NCBI GenBank assembly: GCA_029553475.1
Contig: JAKPKV010000038.1
Location: 1 to 63,109 of the forward strand
Origin: Armatimonadota bacterium
GTDB lineage: Bacteria > Armatimonadota > Hebobacteria > CAIYQO01
Reading direction: 5' to 3'
Length of the DNA: 63,109 bases
Shown here piece by piece: positions 42,727 to 57,451 of the stretch; the stretch's first letter is position 1, and every line of letters begins with the position of its first letter. A program made the translations under genes and the position numbers. The notes beneath the pieces are model-generated. The model had not been told where the DNA came from, made no database searches, and saw only the letters and a program-made list of their open reading frames with translations.

Positions 42727-45579
42727 ATGCTCACACTGACACAACGTATCGTCCTCATCCTGCTGTGCGCCGGCGCCGGCGCGCTTGCCGTGCTCGCGCC
42801 GGCGCCGGTGGTGGCGGACGGCGCCGCGTCGCAGGCGTTCATCGCGCGAGCGCTGGCCGCCGGCCGCTGCGTGGCGGTGGATACCGAGGTGGACAAAGAC
42901 GGCGTGCTCCTCGCCGGCGCGCCGGAGGCGCCGCTGGCGCCGGGACGCTACCGGCTGCACGTCCTCCTCTCCCGCGCGCCGCTGGGCGATCGCTACAGCA
43001 ACGCGGTCGAGGTGACCATCAAAGCCGGCGATGTCGCACACCGGGTGAATCCGCTGCGCTACGCCCTGCCGAATGCCTTCATCCACGTGCCGGTGGACTT
43101 CACCGTGAAACCGGGCAGCCGGGATGTCGGGTACGCGGTGAGCTGGCGCGTCTCGCCCGAAGCGAAGAAGCTGCACAAAACCGGCGGCGCCGCGGCGATG
43201 GAAACGGGACCCGGCGATGAAGACCTGATCCCCGATATCCTCGTCAACCGCCCGAAAACCGCCGCCGACGGCACCATCAGCGTGAAGGACCTCTCGGCGC
43301 TGCCGTACAACCTGGCGGTGAGCGGCGTGCACATCGAGCGCCGCTGCCCGGTGCGCGCCTCGGTATCGGCCGATAAAGTCGTCTACACGCCGGGGGAGAC
43401 CGGCACGGCGACGGTGACGCTGGCGAATGCCGCTGACACCCCGGCGGCGGTGACCGTGGCCCTGGAGGTGTGCGCCGGGCTGGAGGCCGGGAAACCCCTC
43501 GCGACGCGGAAGCTGGAAATACCCGCCGGCGGCGAGCAGACGTGGCGCGAAATCTTCTCCACGGCGGGCATGCGGTGGGGGGCGGACGTGCGCGCCGCCG
43601 TCACGGCGGACGACGGGCGGGGGGATGAGGCGTGCGCCGTCTTCGCCGTCTCACGGAACCCGTATGAGGTTGCCATGCTCGCCGCCCAGGGGCCGAATCT
43701 CGGCCTGGGGTGGAAAGATCCCGCCGATGCCGAACGCCAGGTGCGGGAGTGGCGAGAGAAGGGCATGACCGGCGCCGAACTCTTCTTCTGGGCGCCGTGC
43801 GATTTCGGCGATTTCACCCCGCACATCGAGGACTTCTTCAGCGGGCAGACCCAATACACCCACTCGGTGACCGGCACGAGGAATCTGCTCGCCGCCCTGC
43901 ACAAACACGGCATGGCCGGCGCTGTGTATTCCAACCTCTGGGGCACCGACGGCGCGTCGGGCTTCGAGCTGCTGCGCACGCACCCGGAGTGGTTCGCGCC
44001 CAACGTGCAATACGCCTCGGACTACCTCGAATTCTGGCGGCTGATGGAAGAGAAAAAGGTCACCACCATGCACCAGTGGTGCGAAACGTGGCTGGTGACC
44101 GATGAAAAGATCACCGCCGGCGCGATTGACCACCACGCGAACGAGTTGATCGAAAGCCAAAAACTGTTCGGCTGGGATGCCGTGCGCTACGACACCTACA
44201 TCAGCTCGTCGTGGACGAAGTGGGCGACGCGGAAAACCCGCGACCGGGTCGGCGCCGCCGTGCCTGCCTTTCAATTCGGCTACAACACCTTCCCCGGCAC
44301 CGATGCCAAGGTGGGGGCGCTGGATGCCATGTATGACGGCGGCGGCATGGCGATGCTGGAGTATATCCGCCAGGAGACGTATCCGAAACTGGCCGATTAC
44401 GCCGGGGAGCTCTGGTATTGCCGCGATATCGTCTGGCCCTCCGGCGGGCAGATCGGGCCGCTCTACCGCCATCCGGCGCCGCCCGATACCAAACCGACCA
44501 CGGCCTCGGATATTGACGCGATCTACGTCTCGGCGGCCATCCTCGCCTGCGGCGGCCACCCGTATTACCACCCGCTGGAGAGCGCGGTGGGCGATCACCC
44601 CCGCTTCGCCCTGCGCTACGCGGAATACCTCTGGGACAGCCGCATGCGCGGGCTGAAAGACCCGGCGGCGGTGGTCAGCTTCGGCAACGGCGCTAATCCC
44701 TTCCTCTGGGAGAAGCTGGCGCAGACGGTGACGCTGGACGGCCAGCGCCGGCGGCTGGTGCTGCACCTCCTCAACGTGGACCCGCGGTATACGCTCTTCA
44801 CCAACCTCGACCAGAAGATGCCCGCGCCGCTGCGCAACCTGCCTATTCGTCTGAATTTGCCGGCGGGGGCGCAGCTCACCGGCGCGTGGAACCTCTGCCC
44901 GGCCCCCGATGCCCGGCACGAACGGCTGGAAACGCGGCAGGACGGCGGCGCGGTCACCCTCACCGTGCCGGAGGTGCGCTTCTGGAACGTCATTGTCGTG
45001 GATTACACGTCACCGCGGCCGCTGCCGGAACGCGCGACCACCCGCCAGATTACCGAGACCTGCATCCAGGACTGGTACATCGCCGGGCCGTTCCCGAACA
45101 CGGGGGCGCGCTGCCCGGGCTACGACGCGGTCTACCCGCCCGAAGAAAGGGTTGACCTGGCAGCTACCTATACCGGAAAAGATGAGGCGGAGGTGCGCTG
45201 GCAGCGCACGCGCAAGGCCGGCGAGCCGGCGCTGGGCGGCGGCATGGTGGATTTCGCGCGGTATTATCCGCCCGGCACGGAGGCCTGCGCGTACGCGTAT
45301 ACGACAGTGGCCGCCGATCGCGGCCGCGAGGCGCTGCTGCTGGTGGGCAGCGACGACACCGTGCAAATCTGGCTGAACGGCGCCCCGGTGCATGCCAACC
45401 GCGCCTTCCGCGCCGCCTCGCTCGATGATGACCGCGTGCCGGTGACGCTGAAACAGGGCGACAACACGCTGCTCGTGAAGATTTGCAGCGGCGGCGGCGG
45501 GTGGGAGTTCGTGCTGCGGCTGGCGGAGAAAGACGGCTCGCCGCTGATGGATGGAGTGCGCTATGGTTTTGAAAAGTAA
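42727..45579 (+). CDS. Exported TIM-barrel glycoside hydrolase-like protein with C-terminal binding module
   Basis: 950 aa starting one base after the preceding stop codon. Signal peptide (IVLILLCAGAGALAVLAP). N-terminal beta-sandwich segments lead to an Ig-like region (VVYTPGETGTATVTLANAA). A barrel region (about 300-650) follows, with GAELFFWAPCDFGDF, LFGWDAVRYDTYISS and DAMYDGGGMAMLEYI; the aspartates in the last two could be catalytic. The layout recalls GH66 dextranase-like or GH-13-clan enzymes, but no signature is decisive. The C-terminal 190 residues (DWYIAGPFPNTG, VGSDDTVQIWLNGAPVH, GDNTLLVKICSG) form a lectin-like carbohydrate-binding beta-sandwich. The family is not certain; secretion and carbohydrate binding are well supported. 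Confidence 0.6.
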   Translation: MLTLTQRIVLILLCAGAGALAVLAPAPVVADGAASQAFIARALAAGRCVAVDTEVDKDGVLLAGAPEAPLAPGRYRLHVLLSRAPLGDRYSNAVEVTIKAGDVAHRVNPLRYALPNAFIHVPVDFTVKPGSRDVGYAVSWRVSPEAKKLHKTGGAAAMETGPGDEDLIPDILVNRPKTAADGTISVKDLSALPYNLAVSGVHIERRCPVRASVSADKVVYTPGETGTATVTLANAADTPAAVTVALEVCAGLEAGKPLATRKLEIPAGGEQTWREIFSTAGMRWGADVRAAVTADDGRGDEACAVFAVSRNPYEVAMLAAQGPNLGLGWKDPADAERQVREWREKGMTGAELFFWAPCDFGDFTPHIEDFFSGQTQYTHSVTGTRNLLAALHKHGMAGAVYSNLWGTDGASGFELLRTHPEWFAPNVQYASDYLEFWRLMEEKKVTTMHQWCETWLVTDEKITAGAIDHHANELIESQKLFGWDAVRYDTYISSSWTKWATRKTRDRVGAAVPAFQFGYNTFPGTDAKVGALDAMYDGGGMAMLEYIRQETYPKLADYAGELWYCRDIVWPSGGQIGPLYRHPAPPDTKPTTASDIDAIYVSAAILACGGHPYYHPLESAVGDHPRFALRYAEYLWDSRMRGLKDPAAVVSFGNGANPFLWEKLAQTVTLDGQRRRLVLHLLNVDPRYTLFTNLDQKMPAPLRNLPIRLNLPAGAQLTGAWNLCPAPDARHERLETRQDGGAVTLTVPEVRFWNVIVVDYTSPRPLPERATTRQITETCIQDWYIAGPFPNTGARCPGYDAVYPPEERVDLAATYTGKDEAEVRWQRTRKAGEPALGGGMVDFARYYPPGTEACAYAYTTVAADRGREALLLVGSDDTVQIWLNGAPVHANRAFRAASLDDDRVPVTLKQGDNTLLVKICSGGGGWEFVLRLAEKDGSPLMDGVRYGFEK

Positions 45580-47365
45580 CGGGCTGCTGCTGGTGATGGT
45601 CGCCTGCCTGCTCGCCCTCCCCGCCGTTGCCGGTGACGACGAGGAGGCGCGGAAACTCGGCGTGACGCCCCCGGCGGAGTGGGCCTTCCCGCCCGCGCAG
45701 CCGCTGCAGGTGTGGAGCGTCCGCGGCCTCTGGTATGACCAGTATGGGTTGGACCGCGCGCTGGCCCGCGTCGGCGGCTGCGTCGAGCGCTCGAGCTGGG
45801 TGCAGGGCAATTGGATTCGCTGGTACAGTCCTGATAGCTACGACGAGCTGATGCGGTATCACCTGGCGATCATCGCCAACACCAACGGCCATGCCTTCGC
45901 CAATGGGCGGAATCCCGCCCCGGCGCGCACGCGGCTGAAGGACTACGCCGCCAACGGCGGGGCGGTGCTCTTTCTCGGCGGTTTCTTCGCCTTCGGGAGA
46001 GAATACCACGGCACCGCGCTGGAGGAGATGGCGCCGGTGACGTTCGCCGCGCACCGCGACCTGGAGCGGCATCCCGCGGGCGTGCCGCTCGCCGCCGGTC
46101 CGGACGCGCCGGCGGGCTTCGCGAAATTGAACTGGGCGGCGGCGCCGCGCGTCTACTGGACGCACGCGGTCACCCTGAAGCCGGGCGCGAAAGTGCTCTT
46201 GACCGCCGGCGGCAAGCCGCTGCTCGTCGCCTGGCCGTATGGCAACGGGCGCGTGGCGGTCTTCGCCGGCACCGTGATGGGCGACCCGCCCGCGGGGCAT
46301 CAGCCCTTCTGGCAATGGGACGGCTGGCCCGCGGTGATGGCGGACACGATACGCTGGCTGACGACGAATCCGGCGCGTCCCGGAAATGCCGGCCGCGCGG
46401 ACTACGCGAAAACGCTCAACGCCGCGCTGGCCAAAGCCGGCGGCAAAGCGGAGGCCGAGCGGGCGGTGATGACCGCCTTCCTGCGTCAGTGCGCCGATCC
46501 CGCGGCGGCGCGCGCGGTGACCGATGCCCTCGCCAGCCTCTTTTGGGACATTACGCTCGATGAGGCGGACGCCTATTATGCCGCGGTACTGCCCTATGCG
46601 CGGGGGGGATTCGGCGGGATCGCGGATGCGCTGCTCGCCTCCGGCCACACGCATAAAACGATGCTCGGCCTGCGCCTGCTGGGGTGTGAAAACTCCCCCG
46701 GCACGCGGGAACGCCTCCTCGACGCCCTGAAACGCGGCGACGTGGACGTCGAGGAGATGGGCGACGACCTGGACCCCGGCAGGGCGGGCGAAGATGCCGG
46801 TTATCGCGCGTATGCGTACCGCCTGGCCGCGCTGGAAGGTCTGGGCAATCTGGGCGATCCGGCAGCGCTGCCGGCCATCCGCGCGGTGGTGAAGCAGTAT
46901 GAGGGCAAACGTCCCCGTCGCGAGGAGTTCCCGAAAGACGTCACGCGCGAGCACGAACTCTATCAGGCGGCGCTGCAGGCCGCGCTGCGCTGCGGTGACG
47001 CCGCTGCCGCCGGCCCGCTAGTTGATCTGCTCATGCAGAACCGCTATACGCTGGTCAATATGATGTTCGCCGCGTTCTCCGACGTGAAAGGTCCCGCCGG
47101 CGAAGCCCAGCGCGCCAGGGCCCAGCGCGCTTACGCCCGGCTGCAGGCCCGCCAGCAGTTGGCCTGCGGCCGCCTGGCGCCGCTGCCCGCGTCCGTGCTC
47201 TCCGCGCTGGCCGCGCGCCTGGCCGCCGAAGACGACCCCTGGGTCGCCCCCATCGCCTTTGCCGCTTTCGGCAAGGGGTTTGGCGCGGGGCCGCCCGCCG
47301 ACGCGCTGGCGATCCTCACCCGCGCGACCGTGCCGGCGGTGGCGGATTTAGCCGGCGGGCGGTGA
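45563..47365 (+). CDS. Exported GATase-like and HEAT-repeat protein
   Basis: 600 aa. The ATG at 45563 overlaps the end of the upstream gene by 17 bases; GGAG lies nearby. Signal peptide ([18 protein letters not shown]). Residues 30-280 resemble a class-I glutamine-amidotransferase-like or ThuA-like fold ([35 protein letters not shown]), without the catalytic cysteine of true amidotransferases. The rest contains helical HEAT-like repeats ([52 protein letters not shown]). Such proteins may act as periplasmic scaffolds for polysaccharide processing. It closes the four-to-five-gene operon. Confidence 0.6.
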
Positions 47366-48939: not shown

Positions 48940-51000
48940 CTACCGCCAGGCCGCTGCCGCCGACAGCAGCGCGTCCAGCGTCATCGTCCAGCGCAGGAGG
49001 TAGTAGGCGCGCAGCAGGGCGGCGGCGGGAAGGGCCGGGTCGGCGTCGGCGCTGCCGCGGGCAGCATCCAGCGCCGTGAGCAGTGCTCCCAGCGCCTCCG
49101 CGCAGGCAGTCAGGCCGAGGGCGTGCAGCCGCGCGGCGTCGGCGCGGAGCGTATCGAGGCGGCGGGCGGCAAGGAGGCCGCTTTCCGCGAGGATTTCCAG
49201 CTCCGCCGCCAGCGCGGCAAGCAGGCGGCTGACGGCGGAATGCCCGCGATCATCCCCGGCATCGTCGCCGCTAAGCGGGGAACACGGGCGAGCGGCCGTT
49301 TGCGGAGGACACCGCGGCGCGTCCAGCGTCAGGTTGATCCGCGTCGTGCCGGCGTAAAGCGTGAACGGTTCGACGGTGATGGCCCCCGCGCGCAGCCGCA
49401 GCAGGCCGAGCAGGCGCGTGCCGGGGGTGGGGCGCCAGCCTTCCAGCGTGGCGATGGCGCCCTGGTATTCGGCGGTATAGGGGAGCACCAGGCACACCCC
49501 GCGATCGTCGGCATCGAAGACCGGGCGCACCAGCTCCTGGCGCACGTCGTCAAAGCTGGCGTCTTCCCAGCGCGCCGGCTGCAGCAGCACCAGCGCCCCC
49601 CGCTCGTCGCCGTCGCGAAAGCCGTCGCCGAACGCGGTCAGCGCGCGGTCGGTGAGGGCGCGCCAGTCGGTACTGATCGGCAGCCCGGCAGGCCAGCCGG
49701 CATCGCCGATGATCAGTGCCTGCGTGGCGGCGCGCCCGGACAGGCGGCCGATGGCGTTGCGCCAGGCCGGCATCAACCGCAGGCGGCTGCGGGCGGCCTC
49801 GCCGGGGCATGCGCAGCCCGGCCAGGGACCGTCCGCCAGGTAGCGGCGGGCTGGGTCGAACTGTTCGGCCTGCTCAGCCGGGCGCGCATCGCTCCAGGTG
49901 GCCCAGGCGTGGCTCACCGCGTCCCAGAAGTAGACGGTGAGGCCGACGTAGCCGCTGCGCGTGCGCCAGCGCCGCGCGCCCATGCCGGCCAACTCCAGCG
50001 TGCCGATGTCGTCATAGCGCGAGCGGTGTTCGCCGACCAGTCGCGCGGTAGGCCGGGCGGCCAGCGCCAGCCGCAGCGCCGCTGCCTGCGCCGCCGCTCC
50101 CAGCAGGTTGTGGGTATCGGCCGCCGCACTGCGCGCCAGCAGCAGGCGGGTTTCCTCCGCCAGCGTCTCCAGCAGGCGCTCCAGCCGCGGCAGGTCCACC
50201 CCGTGCGCGGAGACGGCCAGCGTCTGCATGCGCTCGACGGTGGCGTCCGCCGCGCACGAAAAGCCGTGGATGACCAGTTCGTGCAGCATGCCGCCCACCG
50301 CCGCCAGCACTTCCGCCCGCGTGCGTGGCGCGCCGGAAGCGGCTTCCAGCATCGCCGCAGCTTCGGCGACGATTGCGCGCCCGTGCCGGGCCTGTACGCC
50401 GAGTATCGCCAGTACGCGGTGCTCGCATGGCCCGGCGGCATGGCAGCCACAGAGCATGCCGTCGAACCCCGCGCCGGGGAACCAGCGGCAGGTGATCTGC
50501 AGCGCCGGGATGGCGATCGTCAGCGGTGCGCCGCCTTCAATGACGACCTCCAGGCCGTTGGCGAGCCGCCGCAGCGCCTTGCGAAAGAGCGGTTTACCGG
50601 CCCACTTCTGGAGGGTGGCGTCATCGAGGGCGAGGACTTCGGGCAGCGCGGAGGCGGGGGAACCCGCGGATGGAGAATCCGTGATCCCCGGTTCCGGCGC
50701 GACGGCGTCTCGCCCGCCAGAGCGCATGGCGAGGATGGCGACGAGGATATGCCGGCAGGCGCCGCCGGCGGGACAGGTGCAGGACGCGCGCTGGGGCGCG
50801 TCGGGCAGGGTGACGGTGGCGTCGCCCACCGCGAGCTGCAGGGTGTCGCCCGTCTCGCCGATCACCGTCACGGCGGTGGTGTCCAGATCTTTATAGGCGC
50901 GGCGCAGCAGCCCGCGGTTCGCCAGGGCTTCAAGCGCGGCGTCATCGAAGAGCGCCAGTTGGGCGCGTATGCGTGTCAGGAGAGGGCGTTGTCCATCCAT
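48940..51000 (-). CDS. Double SWIM zinc-finger protein of the MoxR-VWA-DUF5682 module
   Basis: 686 aa. Two zinc motifs of the form C-x-C-x5-C-x-H are exactly spaced in the N-terminal third: C74-C76-C82-H84 (SCTCPAGGACRH) and C184-C186-C192-H194 (CGCHAAGPCEH). SWIM domains bind DNA or protein. The rest is long, alanine/leucine-rich and includes WPGCACPGEAARSRLRLMPAW and a YLLRWTMTLDALL C-terminal helix; no enzyme motif is seen. The start at 51000 lies 25 bp inside the VWA gene, so translation is probably coupled. It is the last gene of a module MoxR - DUF5682 - VWA - SWIM. It may recognise a target for the AAA+/VWA machine. Confidence 0.85.
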   Translation of the reverse strand: MDGQRPLLTRIRAQLALFDDAALEALANRGLLRRAYKDLDTTAVTVIGETGDTLQLAVGDATVTLPDAPQRASCTCPAGGACRHILVAILAMRSGGRDAVAPEPGITDSPSAGSPASALPEVLALDDATLQKWAGKPLFRKALRRLANGLEVVIEGGAPLTIAIPALQITCRWFPGAGFDGMLCGCHAAGPCEHRVLAILGVQARHGRAIVAEAAAMLEAASGAPRTRAEVLAAVGGMLHELVIHGFSCAADATVERMQTLAVSAHGVDLPRLERLLETLAEETRLLLARSAAADTHNLLGAAAQAAALRLALAARPTARLVGEHRSRYDDIGTLELAGMGARRWRTRSGYVGLTVYFWDAVSHAWATWSDARPAEQAEQFDPARRYLADGPWPGCACPGEAARSRLRLMPAWRNAIGRLSGRAATQALIIGDAGWPAGLPISTDWRALTDRALTAFGDGFRDGDERGALVLLQPARWEDASFDDVRQELVRPVFDADDRGVCLVLPYTAEYQGAIATLEGWRPTPGTRLLGLLRLRAGAITVEPFTLYAGTTRINLTLDAPRCPPQTAARPCSPLSGDDAGDDRGHSAVSRLLAALAAELEILAESGLLAARRLDTLRADAARLHALGLTACAEALGALLTALDAARGSADADPALPAAALLRAYYLLRWTMTLDALLSAAAAWR

Positions 51001-52124
51001 TCGGCTAATCGCCGCGGCGTCAGGGCCGCGATCTCCGCGCCGGCGTCGGCGCAGCGCTGGGCAAGGGCGTGGTCGTAGACGGGGCGGGCGTCGGCGTCCA
51101 ACGCGGCGAGGCCGAGCACGCGCACGCCCGCCTCGCGATAATGCGTCACCATGCTGATCACGCCCTCGGGGGAATTCCCCTCGAAGAAATCGGTGATGAG
51201 GACGAGGATGGTGCGCGCCGGCGACTCCACCAACCCTTCGCAGTAGCGCAGCGCGTTGTAGATGTCCGTGCCGCCGCCGAGCTGCACGCTCATCAGCACC
51301 GCCAGCGGATCGTCTACCTGCGCGGTCATATCTACGATACTGGTATCGAAGGCGACCAGGCTCACGCGCACCGCGGGCAGCCCGTGGAAGATGCCGGCCA
51401 TCACCGCGCTGTGAATCACCGAGTCGAGCATGGAGCCGCTGCAATCCACGCACAGGATGATGTGCCAGGGGAGGTGTCGCTTCGTGCGCGAGGCGAAGAA
51501 GATCTGCTCCACCAGCAGGCGCCGGCGCTCGGGATCGTAGTGCTTCAGGTTGGCGCGGATGGTGCGCGGCACGTCCAGATTGGCGGCGGTCTGCTGCCGG
51601 CTGCGCTGGCGGCGATTCAGCCGGCCCCACAGCACCGGGCGCACTTCGCTCGCGAGCGTGCGGCTGAGTTCGTCCACCATCTGGCGGACGATGCGGCGGG
51701 CGACCTCCAGCGTCTCCGCCGGCATCAATTCGCGGAAGGTCAGGATCGCCTTCATCAGTTCGTAGCTGGGCTCCAATCGCTCCAGCACCCGCGGGTCGGT
51801 GACGAGCTCCGTCATGCCGTAGCGATGCAGCGCGTGCTGCTCCAGCGTTTCCATGGTCTCGCGCGGAAAGAGCGCGCGGGCTTCGCGTATCCACGCCGGC
51901 ACGGAGAGCATGCTGGCGTCCATCCCGCCCGTGCGCGCTTCGTCTTCGCGCACGCCGCGGTCGCCGTATTCGCGGCCGTAGAGGTATTGCAGCACGCGGT
52001 CCATCCGCGGGTAATCGTCGCCCATGCCCAGCGCGCCGGGCAGTTGCTGCTCGGCGAAGCGCCCCAGGATGAGGCGCCAGCGGGCAAGGGCGGTATTGGA
52101 GTCGTGGTGGTCTGTATGAGACAT
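50976..52124 (-). CDS. VWA domain protein with MIDAS motif
   Basis: 382 aa from ATG 52124; an in-frame ATG at 52232 gives 36 more residues overlapping the upstream gene, and neither has a strong ribosome binding site. The C-terminal VWA fold has a complete metal-ion-dependent adhesion site: DCSGS (227-231), the threonine in GGGTD (286) and aspartate in LITDFFEG (312). The N-terminal 190 residues are helical with a basic patch (WGRLNRRQRSRQQ). VWA proteins of this kind pair with MoxR AAA+ ATPases as substrate- or client-binding partners. Overlaps the SWIM gene by 25 bp and follows DUF5682 after 58 bp. Confidence 0.9.
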   Translation of the reverse strand: MSHTDHHDSNTALARWRLILGRFAEQQLPGALGMGDDYPRMDRVLQYLYGREYGDRGVREDEARTGGMDASMLSVPAWIREARALFPRETMETLEQHALHRYGMTELVTDPRVLERLEPSYELMKAILTFRELMPAETLEVARRIVRQMVDELSRTLASEVRPVLWGRLNRRQRSRQQTAANLDVPRTIRANLKHYDPERRRLLVEQIFFASRTKRHLPWHIILCVDCSGSMLDSVIHSAVMAGIFHGLPAVRVSLVAFDTSIVDMTAQVDDPLAVLMSVQLGGGTDIYNALRYCEGLVESPARTILVLITDFFEGNSPEGVISMVTHYREAGVRVLGLAALDADARPVYDHALAQRCADAGAEIAALTPRRLAEWMDNALS

Positions 52125-52182
52125 ATATTTACCGCGGAGGAGATGATTTCCCGTCGGGGTTTGATAGTCTGTGTGTTCCTCA

Positions 52183-54567
52183 TTATGAGGCAGTCGCGGG
52201 GTCTCCTTTCGTGAGGAGTAGTTCCAAACCATCCGCCAGCAGTGCTTCCCGCACGCGGCGGTTCACCTCCGCGGCGTGCAGGAGGTCATCGCTGCTGAAT
52301 TCGCGGGTGTGCGGCAGCGGCAGCGCCGCCACGCCATGCTGGCGCGCGACCACGGCGGCGACGCGGTCCGTCTCGCGCGGGGTGAGCGTGCTGAACGCGA
52401 GGCGGAGGGTGGGGAGCTGGGTGAGGAAGCGCGCCTCATCCCAATCCGCCAGCACGCCGGTCAGCGCCGCGCAGAGCTCCGGCTCCTGCCAGAGCACGCC
52501 GCGGGCGGTCCGCAGCAGGCCGCGCAGGAAAGCCGGGCCGGATCCGCCGTCGTCCTTCACGCTGTGCAGGAAGCCGGTGAAACGCCGGGTGAGCGCATCC
52601 AGCGGCATCCGCCCGTCATCCACCAACAGGCCGGTGGCGGCGCCGATGACGGCGGCATTGCCATCGGCGGCATCGGCCAGCTCACGCAGGCGGTCCCAGA
52701 GCATCGCCCGGTGCGCGGGCCGGTTGCCGAACGGCGCGGGCATCTGCGACAGGCTGTTCAGCGCGTCCAGCACCGCGTCCTCCGCCTCCCCCGCGGTGGC
52801 GACCAATGCCGGCAGCAGGTAGCAGGCGCGCTGAAAGGCCCGCAGCGCCAGCTCGGCGACATCGGTGAGCCGGTGCGCTTCCAGCGGCTCACGGGAGAGG
52901 TGGAGCATCAGCAGGTCGGCGGCGGCGCGCACCAGCGAGGGGAAGTCGGCATCCGCGGCAATCAGCGCGCCGGTGCGGTCGAGCAGCGCCTGGCTCTGGC
53001 GGTGCAGGCCCATGCGGCAGGATTCCACCACCAGCGCGGTGCCGAGCCGCGCGCGCCCGCCCTGTCCGGCGGCCTCCGCCTCGGCGAAGCGCTCCTGCAG
53101 CATGGCGGCGGCCGCTTCCTCCAACGAGGCCCCGTACATCGCGCGTTCGATGAGGGTGGCGTCCGTCATCGGCGACCAACAATACTGCCAGACCTCCTGC
53201 ACGCGGTCGAGGTGTGTTCCGGCCACGAAATCCGGCCCGCGCTGCAGGGTGGCGAACGGGACGTCGAGGAAGCGCAGGCGATAGAGCAGGCGGCTGGCGG
53301 CGCGGTGGCCGGCGCTGCGGTAGAGGTCGAGGGTGAGGGTGCGCGTCTCGCCGCCGTCGAGGGCCAGCTTCAGGCCGGCGGCGGCGGAGCGGAAGTCATG
53401 GACGATGGGCGGCTGGCCGGCATCCTTCGGCACCTCGCCGACCCGCGCGCCGGCGAGCAGCGCGCGGGCGAGGGTGAGCACGGCCACGCCCTCGATATCG
53501 GCCGCGCCCTTGATAAAACTGGCGCGGATGCCGTCCAGCAGGTCTTCGCGGGTGGGGCCGCGGTGCCCGCGCAGGCGCGCCAGCCGCTCGGTCTGCGCCA
53601 GCGCCTGAATCTCGTCATCCGTGGAGGAATCGCCCTTCTGCCTGCGCAGTCGTTGGCCGAGCTCGACGAGAATCGGCGCCATCGGCTGTCCTTCCCAGCA
53701 CCGCTGGTAGAACTCCGGCGAGGGCATGCCGCTGCCGTAACCGTTCAGGCGGTCAAGCTGCTCGAAGCTGTAGCGGGTCAGCACCACCTGGGCATCGCCG
53801 GGCGCCACGTCCACCGCTTTCGGCACGTCCGGCGCGGTGTCCCGCAGGGCGACGGTGTGAAAGCCGCCGGTGACCACCACCACGCGCCCCGTCTCCCGCG
53901 CGATTTCCGCGGCCATCCCGGCTTCGCGAGCAACGTTCCCCTCGGCGCGCAGCATGTCGTCGGTATAGTCCTCGCGCGCCAGCGCGCAGTAGGCCAGCAC
54001 GTTGCGGAAGAAGGCGGCGGCGTCCAGTTCCTGGTAGCCGTCCTCGTACAGGTGGTCCCACAGGTCGTCGGGGTCGCGGGCGCCGGCGCGCTGGCAGGCG
54101 GCGGCGAGGAAGCGGCTGTGGGTGAAGTAACGCTCCTCGAGCAGGCTGGCGACCCTCCCTTCGGGCCGCTCACCGTGCGCTACCTGCTCCGGATACGTCA
54201 GGTCAATAAACTTCGCGGGGATCTCGAGCGCGGCGGCGGCGCGGATGGCCGCCAGCTCCGGCGAGAAATCGCAGAACGGGTAGTAGGCGGCGTAGTGCGC
54301 CGGCTGCGCGCCGCGGGCGCGCGCGATGTAGGTGGTGAAGATCGCCACCGGCATGCGCGTTTCAGGGTGGATGAGCAGCGGGATGAGCGGCGTCGCGTCG
54401 CGCGGACCCTCGATGAGCACGGCGTCGGGCCGCAGGTGGCGGATGAGTCGGTCCACGTGCCAGGCGCAGGCGGGGCTATGGTGGCGAATGGGCAGGTAGA
54501 CGACGCGGGCATCGAGGTCCAGCGCGGCTAGGCCAGCCACTTGCGGGCTTTCAGGAAGTCCGTCCAT
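52183..54567 (-). CDS. DUF5682 family protein
   Basis: 794 aa. DUF5682 has no assigned biochemistry. N-terminal residues 1-240 carry conserved-looking polar motifs: PIRHHSPACA (H29, H30), LIEGPRD (E53), a REAGMAAEI segment near 214-222, and VVTGGFH (H237). This set and order recall the TIKI/TraB/EreA/ChaN superfamily, where His and Glu residues line the active site; that link is my inference. Residues 300-794 are alpha-helical and rich in Ala/Leu, including a GMPSPEFYQRCWEG block and the 90-residue C-terminal region. The start at 54567 overlaps the moxR end by 40 bp, with AAGGGGG upstream. The gene is the largest of the module and likely gives it its specific activity. Confidence 0.88.
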   Translation of the reverse strand: MDGLPESPQVAGLAALDLDARVVYLPIRHHSPACAWHVDRLIRHLRPDAVLIEGPRDATPLIPLLIHPETRMPVAIFTTYIARARGAQPAHYAAYYPFCDFSPELAAIRAAAALEIPAKFIDLTYPEQVAHGERPEGRVASLLEERYFTHSRFLAAACQRAGARDPDDLWDHLYEDGYQELDAAAFFRNVLAYCALAREDYTDDMLRAEGNVAREAGMAAEIARETGRVVVVTGGFHTVALRDTAPDVPKAVDVAPGDAQVVLTRYSFEQLDRLNGYGSGMPSPEFYQRCWEGQPMAPILVELGQRLRRQKGDSSTDDEIQALAQTERLARLRGHRGPTREDLLDGIRASFIKGAADIEGVAVLTLARALLAGARVGEVPKDAGQPPIVHDFRSAAAGLKLALDGGETRTLTLDLYRSAGHRAASRLLYRLRFLDVPFATLQRGPDFVAGTHLDRVQEVWQYCWSPMTDATLIERAMYGASLEEAAAAMLQERFAEAEAAGQGGRARLGTALVVESCRMGLHRQSQALLDRTGALIAADADFPSLVRAAADLLMLHLSREPLEAHRLTDVAELALRAFQRACYLLPALVATAGEAEDAVLDALNSLSQMPAPFGNRPAHRAMLWDRLRELADAADGNAAVIGAATGLLVDDGRMPLDALTRRFTGFLHSVKDDGGSGPAFLRGLLRTARGVLWQEPELCAALTGVLADWDEARFLTQLPTLRLAFSTLTPRETDRVAAVVARQHGVAALPLPHTREFSSDDLLHAAEVNRRVREALLADGLELLLTKGDPATAS

Positions 54568-55615
54568 ATGCCCCCTTTGCTCTTGCTCCGCTGGGTCACC
54601 ACGATATCGAAATAATGCTTCAGCTTCTTCTCCTCGCCCTGGGCGTCTTTGGTCATCGCCGTGGCCAGGTGCCGGCAGATGAACTCCGGCGTCAGCATGC
54701 CCGTGCCGAAGTAATGGCAGTCGAGGCCGGCGGAAAGGGCGACGGAGACCGCCTCCGCGGTGGACATCACCGCGGCCGCCTTCTCGAGTTGAATGCCTTC
54801 CGCCGTGACGCCCTCGCGCAGATCGTGGAAGGCGGTGACGAGCAGCTCCACGACCGGCCGCTCCACCGTCACCGGAGCGGCGGCCTCCGCCAGCAGGCGC
54901 GCGCACTCCTGCTGCACCAGCGCGATCTCCAGGTTGATATCGCGGATGGGCGATACCGTTTCGAAGTTGAAGCGGCGCTTCAAAGCGCTGGACATTTCAT
55001 GCACCCCGCGGTCGCGGGTGTTGGCGGTGGCGATGACGTTGAAGCCGGGCGTTGCCAGCAGCACGCGGTCGTCGCCGGGCAGCTCCGGCACGATGAGCAT
55101 CTTCTCGGAGAGGATGCCGATGAGGGCGTCCTGAATCTCCGGCGCGCAGCGGGTGATCTCCTCAAAACGCACCAGCACGCCGTCACGCATGCCGGTGTAG
55201 ATGGCCGACGGCACCAGCGCGCGCGGCGTCGGCCCTTCGCCAGCAGCAGCGCGTAGTTCCAGGAATACTTCACCTGGTCCTCGCTCACGCCGGCGCTGCC
55301 CTGGATGGTGTGCGTGGAATTGCCGCTGATGGCGGCGGCCAGCAGTTCGGAGAGCATGGATTTCGCCGTGCCCGGCTCGCCCACCAGCAGCAGCCCGCGC
55401 GTCCCCGCCAGGCTCACGATGGCGCGCTCCACCAGCGTGTCGTCCCCGTAGAATTTTCGCGCGATCCCCCGTTTCGCGTCCCCGCAGACGAAAGCCTTCA
55501 CCGCCAGCGGCGACAACCGCCACCCCGGCGGCTTCGGCCCACCGTCAGTCCGCGCGAGGGTCGCCAATTCGTCCGCGTACGCCAGCTCGGCCGGCGGGCG
55601 AAGCATGGTCGCCAT
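54528..55615 (-). CDS. MoxR-family AAA+ ATPase, interrupted by a one-base frameshift
   Basis: The protein is split over two minus-strand frames. The first frame (from ATG 55615, GGAGG upstream) gives the N-terminus with Walker A GEPGTAKS (79-86) and runs to ALLLAKG near 55232. The second frame continues with [12 protein letters not shown], the Walker B-like [10 protein letters not shown], sensor 1 [12 protein letters not shown] and arginine finger SALKRRF. Inserting one C in the GGCC run at 55231-55235 would restore a single 362-aa protein of the expected length. It may be an assembly error, a real lesion or a recoded shift. MoxR ATPases drive remodelling of client proteins with VWA partners, and this gene heads the module. 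Overlaps DUF5682 by 40 bp. Confidence 0.88.
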
Positions 55616-55693: not shown

Positions 55694-57451
55694 CTAGCGC
55701 TGAAACTTCTTATCCAGCTCATACCGCGTGATCGTCATGATGATCGGGTCGCCATGGGGGCAGATTCCCGGATTCGGCAGTTGGCATAACGCATCGAGGA
55801 GTTTGGTCTGTTCCTCGGGGGCGAGCCACTTGCCGGCGGTGATGGCGCCCTTGCAGGCGATACTGGCGAGCAAGCGGCGGCGGCCTTCTTCCAGCGCGCG
55901 ACGGGCGGGGTCTTCCGGGGTGAAGGCGGCGATGGTGATCCCCGCGTCCAGGTCGGCGAGAATCTCCTGCAGCACCGTCTCCGGGTTGTGCCCGGCGAGG
56001 ACGGCGGGCATGGCGCGCACCAGGTAGCTCTGCCCGCTCATCGGCTCGATGTCGAAGCCGAAGGCGGCGAGGTTCTCGCGCTGGGCGTCGAGCAGCGCCG
56101 CCTCGCGATGGCCGAGATGCACCGTCGCCGGCAGCACCAGCCGCTGGGCGAGGACGTGATCGCGGGCCGCCCACAGGCGCTCGAAGATGACGCGCTCGTG
56201 CGCGCGGTGCTGGTTGATGACGAGGAGCGCGTCGCGCCCTTCGGCCAGCAGAAAGATGCCGTGGAACTGCCCCAGCGCGCGCAGGCCGGTCTGCGGCACG
56301 GCGGCGGCGGGGGTGGGGTGGGCGGCGGGCAGCGCCGGCGTCCCCACCGGGGCCGCGGCGCTGCCAGGGGGGAAGGCGATGGCCGGCTGCGCGGCGCGCG
56401 CCGGCGCGGTGGCGCGCGCCGCGCCGGCGCTGCCGGGATTCCAGACCGCGAGCTCCTGGATCATGCTCACCCCGGCGAGGGCGCTCTTCACCGCGCGCAC
56501 CACGACGGCGTGCACCTCCTGCTCGCGGTGGAAGCGCACCTCCGCCTTGGCGGGGTGGACATTCACGTCCAACTGGCGCGGGTCGAGCGTCAACCGCAGC
56601 ACAGCGACGGGGAAGCGCCCGCGGTCGAGCAGGCCCTCGTAGGCGTATTCCAGCGCGTGGGTGATGGTGCGGTTGAGAATGCGGCGGCCATTGACGATGA
56701 CGAGCTGGCCGGAACGGTTGCCGCGCGCCGCGTCCGGTTTGCCGACGTAGCCGTCCACGCGCACGCCGGGGGTATCGAGTTCCACCGGCACCATCGCCTC
56801 CGCCGTCTGCCGGCCCAGCCAGGCGGCGATGTGCGTCGGCAGCGATGGGGTGGCGGGCCGGGAGAGCGTTTCACGGCCCTGAATCAGCAGGCGAAAATTC
56901 ACGCTGGGGTAGGCGAGGGAGATGGCGTTGAGCAGGTCGGCGATCTGCCCGCATTCCGTCTGGTCGCTCTTCAGGAATTTCAGCCGCGCGGGGGTGTTGA
57001 AGAACAGTTGGCGTACCTCGAAGCGCGTGCCCGGCGGGCAGCCGATGTCGTTCAGGTCCACGATGGTGCCGCCGCGCGCCAGCAGTTCGGTGCCGATCTC
57101 CTCGTCGTGCGGACGGGTGACCATGCGCAGGTGGCTGACGGCGGCGATGCTGGGCAGCGCCTCCCCGCGGAAGCCCAGGGTGCGAATCTCGAACAGGTCG
57201 TCGGCGACGGCGATCTTGCTGGTGGCGTGCCGCTGCAGCGAGAGCACCGCGTCCTCGCGCGCCATCCCGCCGCCGTTATCGGTGACCTGGATGAGTTTGC
57301 GTCCGGCTTCCTCGATCACCACCTCGATATCGGTGGCGCCGGCGTCGAGCGCGTTCTCCACCAGTTCCTTCACCACCGAGGCGGGACGCTCGATGACTTC
57401 GCCGGCGGCGATCTTGTTGGCCAGTGATTCGTCTAAAATGCGAATGGGCAT
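55694..57451 (-). CDS. mutL: DNA mismatch repair protein MutL
   Basis: 585 aa, normal length. N-terminal GHKL ATPase motifs are complete: KELVENALDAGA, DNGGGM and TLGFRGEALPSIA; the segment GTRFEVRQLFFNTPARLKF follows. The linker (about 330-390) is proline/alanine-rich. In the C-terminal domain the endonuclease metal motif D-Q-H-A-x2-E-x4-E appears as NQHRAHERVIFE: the first aspartate is asparagine and the alanine is arginine. CKGAITAGKWL and CPHGDPI replace the usual ACHxA and CPHGRP blocks. Latent nicking activity may therefore be weak or lost. It sits 78 bp before moxR and 11 bp after a metallophosphoesterase. mutS is not in the window. Confidence 0.95.
   Translation of the reverse strand: MPIRILDESLANKIAAGEVIERPASVVKELVENALDAGATDIEVVIEEAGRKLIQVTDNGGGMAREDAVLSLQRHATSKIAVADDLFEIRTLGFRGEALPSIAAVSHLRMVTRPHDEEIGTELLARGGTIVDLNDIGCPPGTRFEVRQLFFNTPARLKFLKSDQTECGQIADLLNAISLAYPSVNFRLLIQGRETLSRPATPSLPTHIAAWLGRQTAEAMVPVELDTPGVRVDGYVGKPDAARGNRSGQLVIVNGRRILNRTITHALEYAYEGLLDRGRFPVAVLRLTLDPRQLDVNVHPAKAEVRFHREQEVHAVVVRAVKSALAGVSMIQELAVWNPGSAGAARATAPARAAQPAIAFPPGSAAAPVGTPALPAAHPTPAAAVPQTGLRALGQFHGIFLLAEGRDALLVINQHRAHERVIFERLWAARDHVLAQRLVLPATVHLGHREAALLDAQRENLAAFGFDIEPMSGQSYLVRAMPAVLAGHNPETVLQEILADLDAGITIAAFTPEDPARRALEEGRRRLLASIACKGAITAGKWLAPEEQTKLLDALCQLPNPGICPHGDPIIMTITRYELDKKFQR

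Follow-up and report, generated by a model that had tools for sequence, protein, structure and literature searches.

The window, that is, the whole stretch of DNA analysed, comprises positions 1-63,109 of contig JAKPKV010000038.1 from an Armatimonadota bacterium (assembly GCA_029553475.1). At 48940-55615 it contains a compact group of four genes, all on the minus strand, which encode in order a MoxR ATPase, a DUF5682 protein, a VWA protein and a SWIM protein (Table 1). The DUF5682 gene overlaps moxR by 40 bp and is separated from the VWA gene by 58 bp, and the VWA and SWIM genes overlap by 25 bp. A preliminary description, made from the letters of the DNA, had reported this arrangement with the same junctions, as well as a large DUF5682 protein, an intact MIDAS in the VWA protein (DCSGS...T...D) and two SWIM motifs (CxC-x5-CxH) in the last protein; all these features were confirmed. 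Pfam models matched AAA_5 in MoxR, DUF5682 and VWA_CoxE, and the SWIM model fell just under its threshold (18.8 bits, cut-off 19.6).

Table 1. Positions and assignment of the module genes and of the adjoining mutL gene in the window
Feature	Positions	Strand	Evidence
moxR, yehL orthologue; AAA+ MoxR ATPase of the YehL subfamily; frameshifted at about 55225-55240	54528..55615	-	blastp to YehL, 55% then 45% identity in two frames; codon comparison with relatives
DUF5682 gene, yehM orthologue; 794 aa; predicted TraB/TIKI/ChaN-like alpha/beta domain (about 20-265) and helical repeats (about 284-790)	52183..54567	-	Pfam PF18934, E 1.6e-111; AlphaFold2, pLDDT 90.5; VIA; profile comparison with TraB and ChaN-like
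VWA (CoxE-like) gene, yehP orthologue; 382 aa; MIDAS intact	50976..52124	-	Pfam PF05762, E 1.4e-54; 46% identity to YehP over the full length
SWIM protein gene, yehQ orthologue; 686 aa; two SWIM zinc motifs; predicted tandem OB folds (about 327-553)	48940..51000	-	sequence; blastp to YehQ, E 8e-12; AlphaFold2, pLDDT 88.8; Foldseek and VIA to RPA70
mutL	55694..57451	-	Pfam DNA_mis_repair, MutL_C

The mutL gene lies upstream of moxR on the same strand, at a distance of 78 bp; the two may share transcription, and membership of mutL in the module is not established. More than 20 relatives have precisely the same 25-bp overlap of the VWA and SWIM genes (50976-51000 in the window), suggesting that translation of the two genes is coupled.

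The first gene had rightly been described as encoding an AAA+ MoxR ATPase, but it is not a single open frame as had been assumed. A one-base frameshift splits it over two frames: the first, from the ATG at 55615, tracks E. coli YehL to about ..NYALLLAKG, and the second resumes the match up to the stop at 54528. Comparison of the codons showed that relatives encode LLLAEGP at this point (an Ala-Glu-Gly-Pro stretch), the window being one G short. A programmed frameshift was considered and dropped, the slippery heptamer being absent at the junction. Either a mistake in the assembly or a genuine mutation would account for the shift. If the mutation is real, this copy of the module could be decaying and the operon no longer working, a reading that concerns the window alone and is compatible with any functional model. 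The missing G agrees with it, as does the absence of DUF5682 from the same-genus and same-family genomes searched. However, the other three genes are intact, the shifted remainder of moxR has retained its 45% identity to YehL, and single bases can drop out of draft metagenome-type assemblies, so that we consider decay possible but on the doubtful side.

The yehLMPQ module and its distribution

On the basis of sequence homology and gene order, the module is the orthologue of the collinear yehL-yehM-yehP-yehQ genes of E. coli K-12. The two share the four families, their order and the short junctions. The homology is near full-length for MoxR (55/45% identity by blastp), DUF5682 (33%) and VWA (46%), and for the SWIM protein an identity of 26% was found in the N-terminal part. 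They differ in that the window moxR is frameshifted and that E. coli carries yehF/yehH/yehI (WGR, DUF4132) immediately upstream, whereas the DUF4132 genes of the window genome are located on other contigs. The module is therefore not the undescribed system that had been proposed, as YehL is already recognized by name among the MoxR subfamilies (PMC3893208). The operon is of a known kind, and no function was found for yehLMPQ in the papers searched, which name the four genes together only in strain descriptions and in which DUF5682 was not found. What is new here is the linkage to DUF4132, the prediction of a TraB/TIKI/ChaN-like domain and that of tandem OB folds.

The main test suggested for the module was a survey of gene neighbourhoods. 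Scanning of a genome collection with a DUF5682 profile gave 80 loci from Proteobacteria, Planctomycetes, Actinobacteria, Firmicutes, Bacteroidota, Cyanobacteria and others, to which E. coli was added. All four genes were present in 64 of the 81 loci, almost always in the order moxR-DUF5682-VWA-SWIM; MoxR, DUF5682 and VWA were found in 11, and other or fewer combinations in 6. Conservation of one order in so many loci from many phyla means that the clustering is far beyond chance, and the expected co-occurrence was thus borne out. Partners were present even when scattered: four genomes with DUF5682 but no adjacent VWA gene had the latter elsewhere (4/4), and three of them also had the SWIM protein. 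In seven three-gene loci, mainly from Bacteroidota and cyanobacteria, a variant SWIM-DUF5691-MoxR-DUF5682-VWA was found, in which a shorter SWIM protein (~440 aa) and DUF5691 lie just upstream of MoxR. The distance matrices of MoxR, DUF5682, VWA, SWIM and DUF4132 (47 loci) correlated with r 0.90-0.95, a value that partly reflects shared species history. The module is thus homologous, ordered and co-inherited across these loci, and frequently linked to DUF4132.

Within the phylum of the window, DUF5682 is patchy (18 of 201 genomes), and the sampled genes have a MoxR or VWA neighbour. Most of these proteins belong to an RHHGPGSAR type that shares about 25% identity with the RHHSPACA (YehM) type of the window, so that the window copy may have been horizontally acquired.

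The patchiness in this phylum, and the use of MoxR-VWA pairs in described conflict systems (PMC7159879), could be taken to mean that the module works against phages or rival bacteria in the manner of the MoxR-vWA ternary conflict systems, in which a core of MoxR and vWA is likewise combined with additional fixed components. In those systems the third component is VMAP, iSTAND, FtsH or a beta-propeller, in contrast to DUF5682 here. Pfam showed none of these partner families in the module, only DUF5682 and SWIM, the bpMoxR model scoring 24.7 bits (cut-off 27), and no effector domain, variable or other, was seen. PADLOC gave no meaningful match in any component, DUF5682 had no match in phages, and the 132 neighbouring genes were mostly ordinary chromosomal or metabolic ones with a handful of scattered defence matches. 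A defence-island reading was thus unsupported by PADLOC on the components and neighbours and by the phage and plasmid searches. Moreover, yehM was found in 5284 of the 5426 complete E. coli genomes (97%), so that the operon belongs to the core genome of this species, and its distribution extends across many phyla. The conflict analogy drawn in the preliminary description is accordingly weak; a conflict system appears quite improbable and, given the core status in E. coli, the ordinary neighbours and the lack of phage and meaningful PADLOC matches, a mobile defence system is unlikely.

Predicted folds of the DUF5682 and SWIM proteins

Structure prediction, which had been recommended, was applied to these two proteins. 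The AlphaFold2 model of DUF5682, built from 66 sequences (mean pLDDT 90.5), comprises an alpha/beta domain followed by helical repeats. The alpha/beta domain contains the motifs RHHxP, EGP, SPE, RExxM and GGxH, and the residues R28, H29, H30, E53, R214, M218, G234 and H237 are invariant in the 66 sequences. This arrangement matches the pattern of the TraB/TIKI/ChaN/EreA proteins, namely a His near the first strand, a Glu after the second, an R-x(3)-[MW] helix and G-x-x-H. Among the Foldseek candidates, a chain of Tetrahymena complex IV ranked first in VIA-align (Z 10.9, 196 residues, rmsd 4.3, model residues 6-245). This complex is reported to hold a TraB-family subunit (PMC10060162), which is probably the matched chain; a bacterial TraB profile gave no sequence match to the chain. 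In the BFVD viral library a 'TraB family protein' ranked third (E 0.15, probability 0.92). Profile comparison of the domain by hhalign gave P 7.5e-4 against TraB and 2e-4 against ChaN-like proteins, both aligned at RExxM...GGxH; three unrelated families gave 0.15-0.5, and the comparison of TraB with ChaN-like gave 3.3e-5.

Searched with the whole protein, Foldseek returned weak matches, mostly to helical-repeat proteins (E at least 0.04). No match to Pfam PF01963 (TraB_PrgY_gumN) was found at E 0.1, so that DUF5682 is at most a distant TraB relative; a PF01963 search in this phylum yielded almost no relatives, and searches of PDB sequences with the DUF5682 and SWIM profiles gave nothing credible. 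Taken together, the comparisons point to a distant TraB/TIKI/ChaN-like N-terminal domain, probably metal-dependent. The likeness to the TraB/GumN, TIKI, ChaN-like and EreA superfamily consists in HH...E...RExxM...GxxH being in register and in a predicted fold that may be shared; DUF5682 differs in being too distant for the Pfam models and in being fused to long helical repeats.

In the SWIM protein the two motifs involve C74, C76, C82, H84 and C183, C185, C191, H193 (approximate positions); in relatives a simple motif pattern usually finds one copy. In the AlphaFold2 model (mean pLDDT 88.8) residues ~327-553 matched RPA70 (DBD-A/B) with a Foldseek E of 1.1e-3 and a probability of 1.00, and with a VIA Z of 8.3 over 181 residues. 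The same segment also matched HIN-200 domains, Teb1, Stn1 and single OB folds of tRNA synthetases; as these OB-family matches were tied, they support the fold and not any one relative. The C-terminal half is therefore predicted to contain two consecutive OB folds. The resemblance to the tandem OB folds of RPA70 and HIN-200 extends over ~170-180 superposed residues, but the sequence identity is ~4-10%, and in the YehQ type the OB folds are fused to SWIM zinc motifs. The combination of SWIM motifs with a predicted tandem OB fold points to nucleic-acid binding, although OB folds also bind RNA and protein. These models fit two earlier suggestions, that the SWIM protein would recognize nucleic acid and that DUF5682, here with a predicted TIKI/TraB-like domain and invariant His/Glu residues, would carry out chemistry.

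The DUF4132 partner and links to DNA damage

The module had been seen as one of four genes. The co-occurrence of the four families stands, but a usual fifth partner had escaped notice: a MolR-like protein of ~1240 aa, with HEAT repeats and DUF4132 (Pfam), clusters with the module in 55 of the 81 loci, usually directly before MoxR. The link is strengthened by loci rearranged to VWA-SWIM-DUF4132-MoxR-DUF5682. When 21 genomes were checked, mostly ones with no adjacent copy, DUF4132 was found somewhere in 14, and those lacking it mostly carried the DUF5691 variant. DUF4132 beside yehLMPQ is therefore common, not universal, and is not a defining feature. No DUF4132 gene lies beside the module in the window, and three are present on other contigs of the same genome. 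Two divergent ones (contig C26, 6619-17339) adjoin genes for an SbcD-like metallophosphoesterase and an SbcC/Rad50-like AAA/SMC-type ATPase, the Sbc names being ours and Pfam giving broad families only.

In E. coli, DUF4132 is carried by YehI and a WGR domain by yehF (Pfam). The molR/DUF4132 segment opens with a LexA-type box, AACTGGATAAAATTACAGGG, at a distance of 7 bp from the start of yehF; the box is thus not directly before yehL. It matches the sequence of the molR site exactly, and it was missed by a scan with a strict LexA pattern. A clear box was found only in E. coli, with a weaker one in a close relative and none clear in the other gammaproteobacteria examined. In lists of LexA-regulated genes molR is included (PMC11039860), and in Deinococcus DUF4132 and WGR genes are upregulated on depletion of the damage repressor DdrO (PMC8533742). 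Together with the SbcCD-like genes and mutL these are hints, not proof that YehLMPQ itself responds to damage.

In Proteus and Xenorhabdus the motif CTGTTTATnCATACAT was observed 14 bp before the first gene, in one case a DUF4132 gene; it is possibly a diverged LexA box.

Candidate functions of YehLMPQ

The NorQ-NorD and CoxD-CoxE systems resemble the module in joining a MoxR AAA+ protein to a CoxE-type VWA, whose known relatives serve metal-cluster assembly, but they have no DUF5682, SWIM/OB or DUF4132 partner. The strongest rival explanation follows from them: MoxR-VWA would load metal into DUF5682 as client metalloenzyme, with the SWIM protein as specificity factor. The strong CoxE match of the VWA protein (Table 1) and the invariant His-His-Glu-His set of DUF5682, which suits a metal, agree with such a role, and so does metal insertion driven by NorQD (PMC13036017); the name of the adjoining molR locus refers to molybdate use (Lee 1990, as cited in PMC8533742). 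No gene for a metalloenzyme client of the cNOR or CO dehydrogenase kind recurs near the module, and neither the LexA link and WGR nor the RPA-like tandem OB folds are explained; we consider metal insertion rather unlikely. It would be compatible with the model favoured below as an activation step, and both may belong to a single process.

RavA-ViaA is another MoxR and VWA pair of E. coli, and RavA, the other MoxR protein of this species, acts in general proteostasis or as a respiratory-complex chaperone (PMC3893208). For YehLMPQ a similar role seems very improbable: YehL belongs to a different subfamily, its regular partners are a hydrolase-like and an OB-fold protein in place of LdcI and respiratory partners, and no respiratory genes recur nearby.

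We favour, tentatively and at somewhat less than an even chance, a reading in which a MoxR-VWA machine remodels targets at nucleic acid together with a TIKI-like hydrolase, probably in connection with DNA damage; the mechanism that we infer is as follows. YehL, as MoxR ring, and YehP, as VWA adaptor, would form an ATP-driven remodelling machine, which YehQ, through its SWIM motifs and predicted tandem OB folds, would recruit to nucleic acid, the probable sites being single-stranded DNA or DNA-protein lesions. In YehM, a scaffold of helical repeats would carry a hydrolase domain of the TIKI/TraB kind that probably depends on metal, and the protein would either act upon the remodelled target or be activated by it; an additional sensor or scaffold may be provided by DUF4132/MolR proteins. 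Of the possible settings, DNA damage or nucleic-acid stress is the most likely. Several points count against this reading: the VWA is of the CoxE type, the LexA-type box is confined to E. coli and, in weaker form, one close relative and does not directly precede yehL, the TraB likeness is distant, and OB folds have RNA and protein as ligands too. It is tempting to speculate further that yehLMPQ and DUF4132 form an undescribed, widespread DNA-damage machine, in which single-stranded DNA or DNA-protein crosslinks are flagged by the RPA-like SWIM protein, the protein bound there is unfolded by MoxR-VWA, and YehM, as a TIKI-like metal hydrolase, cuts it; we regard this specific version as distinctly unlikely. 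If true, eukaryotic p97 with SPRTN would be its functional parallel. The operon is core in E. coli and widespread, yet has no assigned function in the papers searched, and the predicted folds of two of its proteins, with the damage-linked fifth partner, provide hypotheses that are testable in the standard K-12 strain.

Elsewhere in the window, positions 45551-47365 encode a 604-aa protein with a GATase1-like domain and HEAT/PBS repeats, which overlaps the end of an upstream 950-aa ORF.
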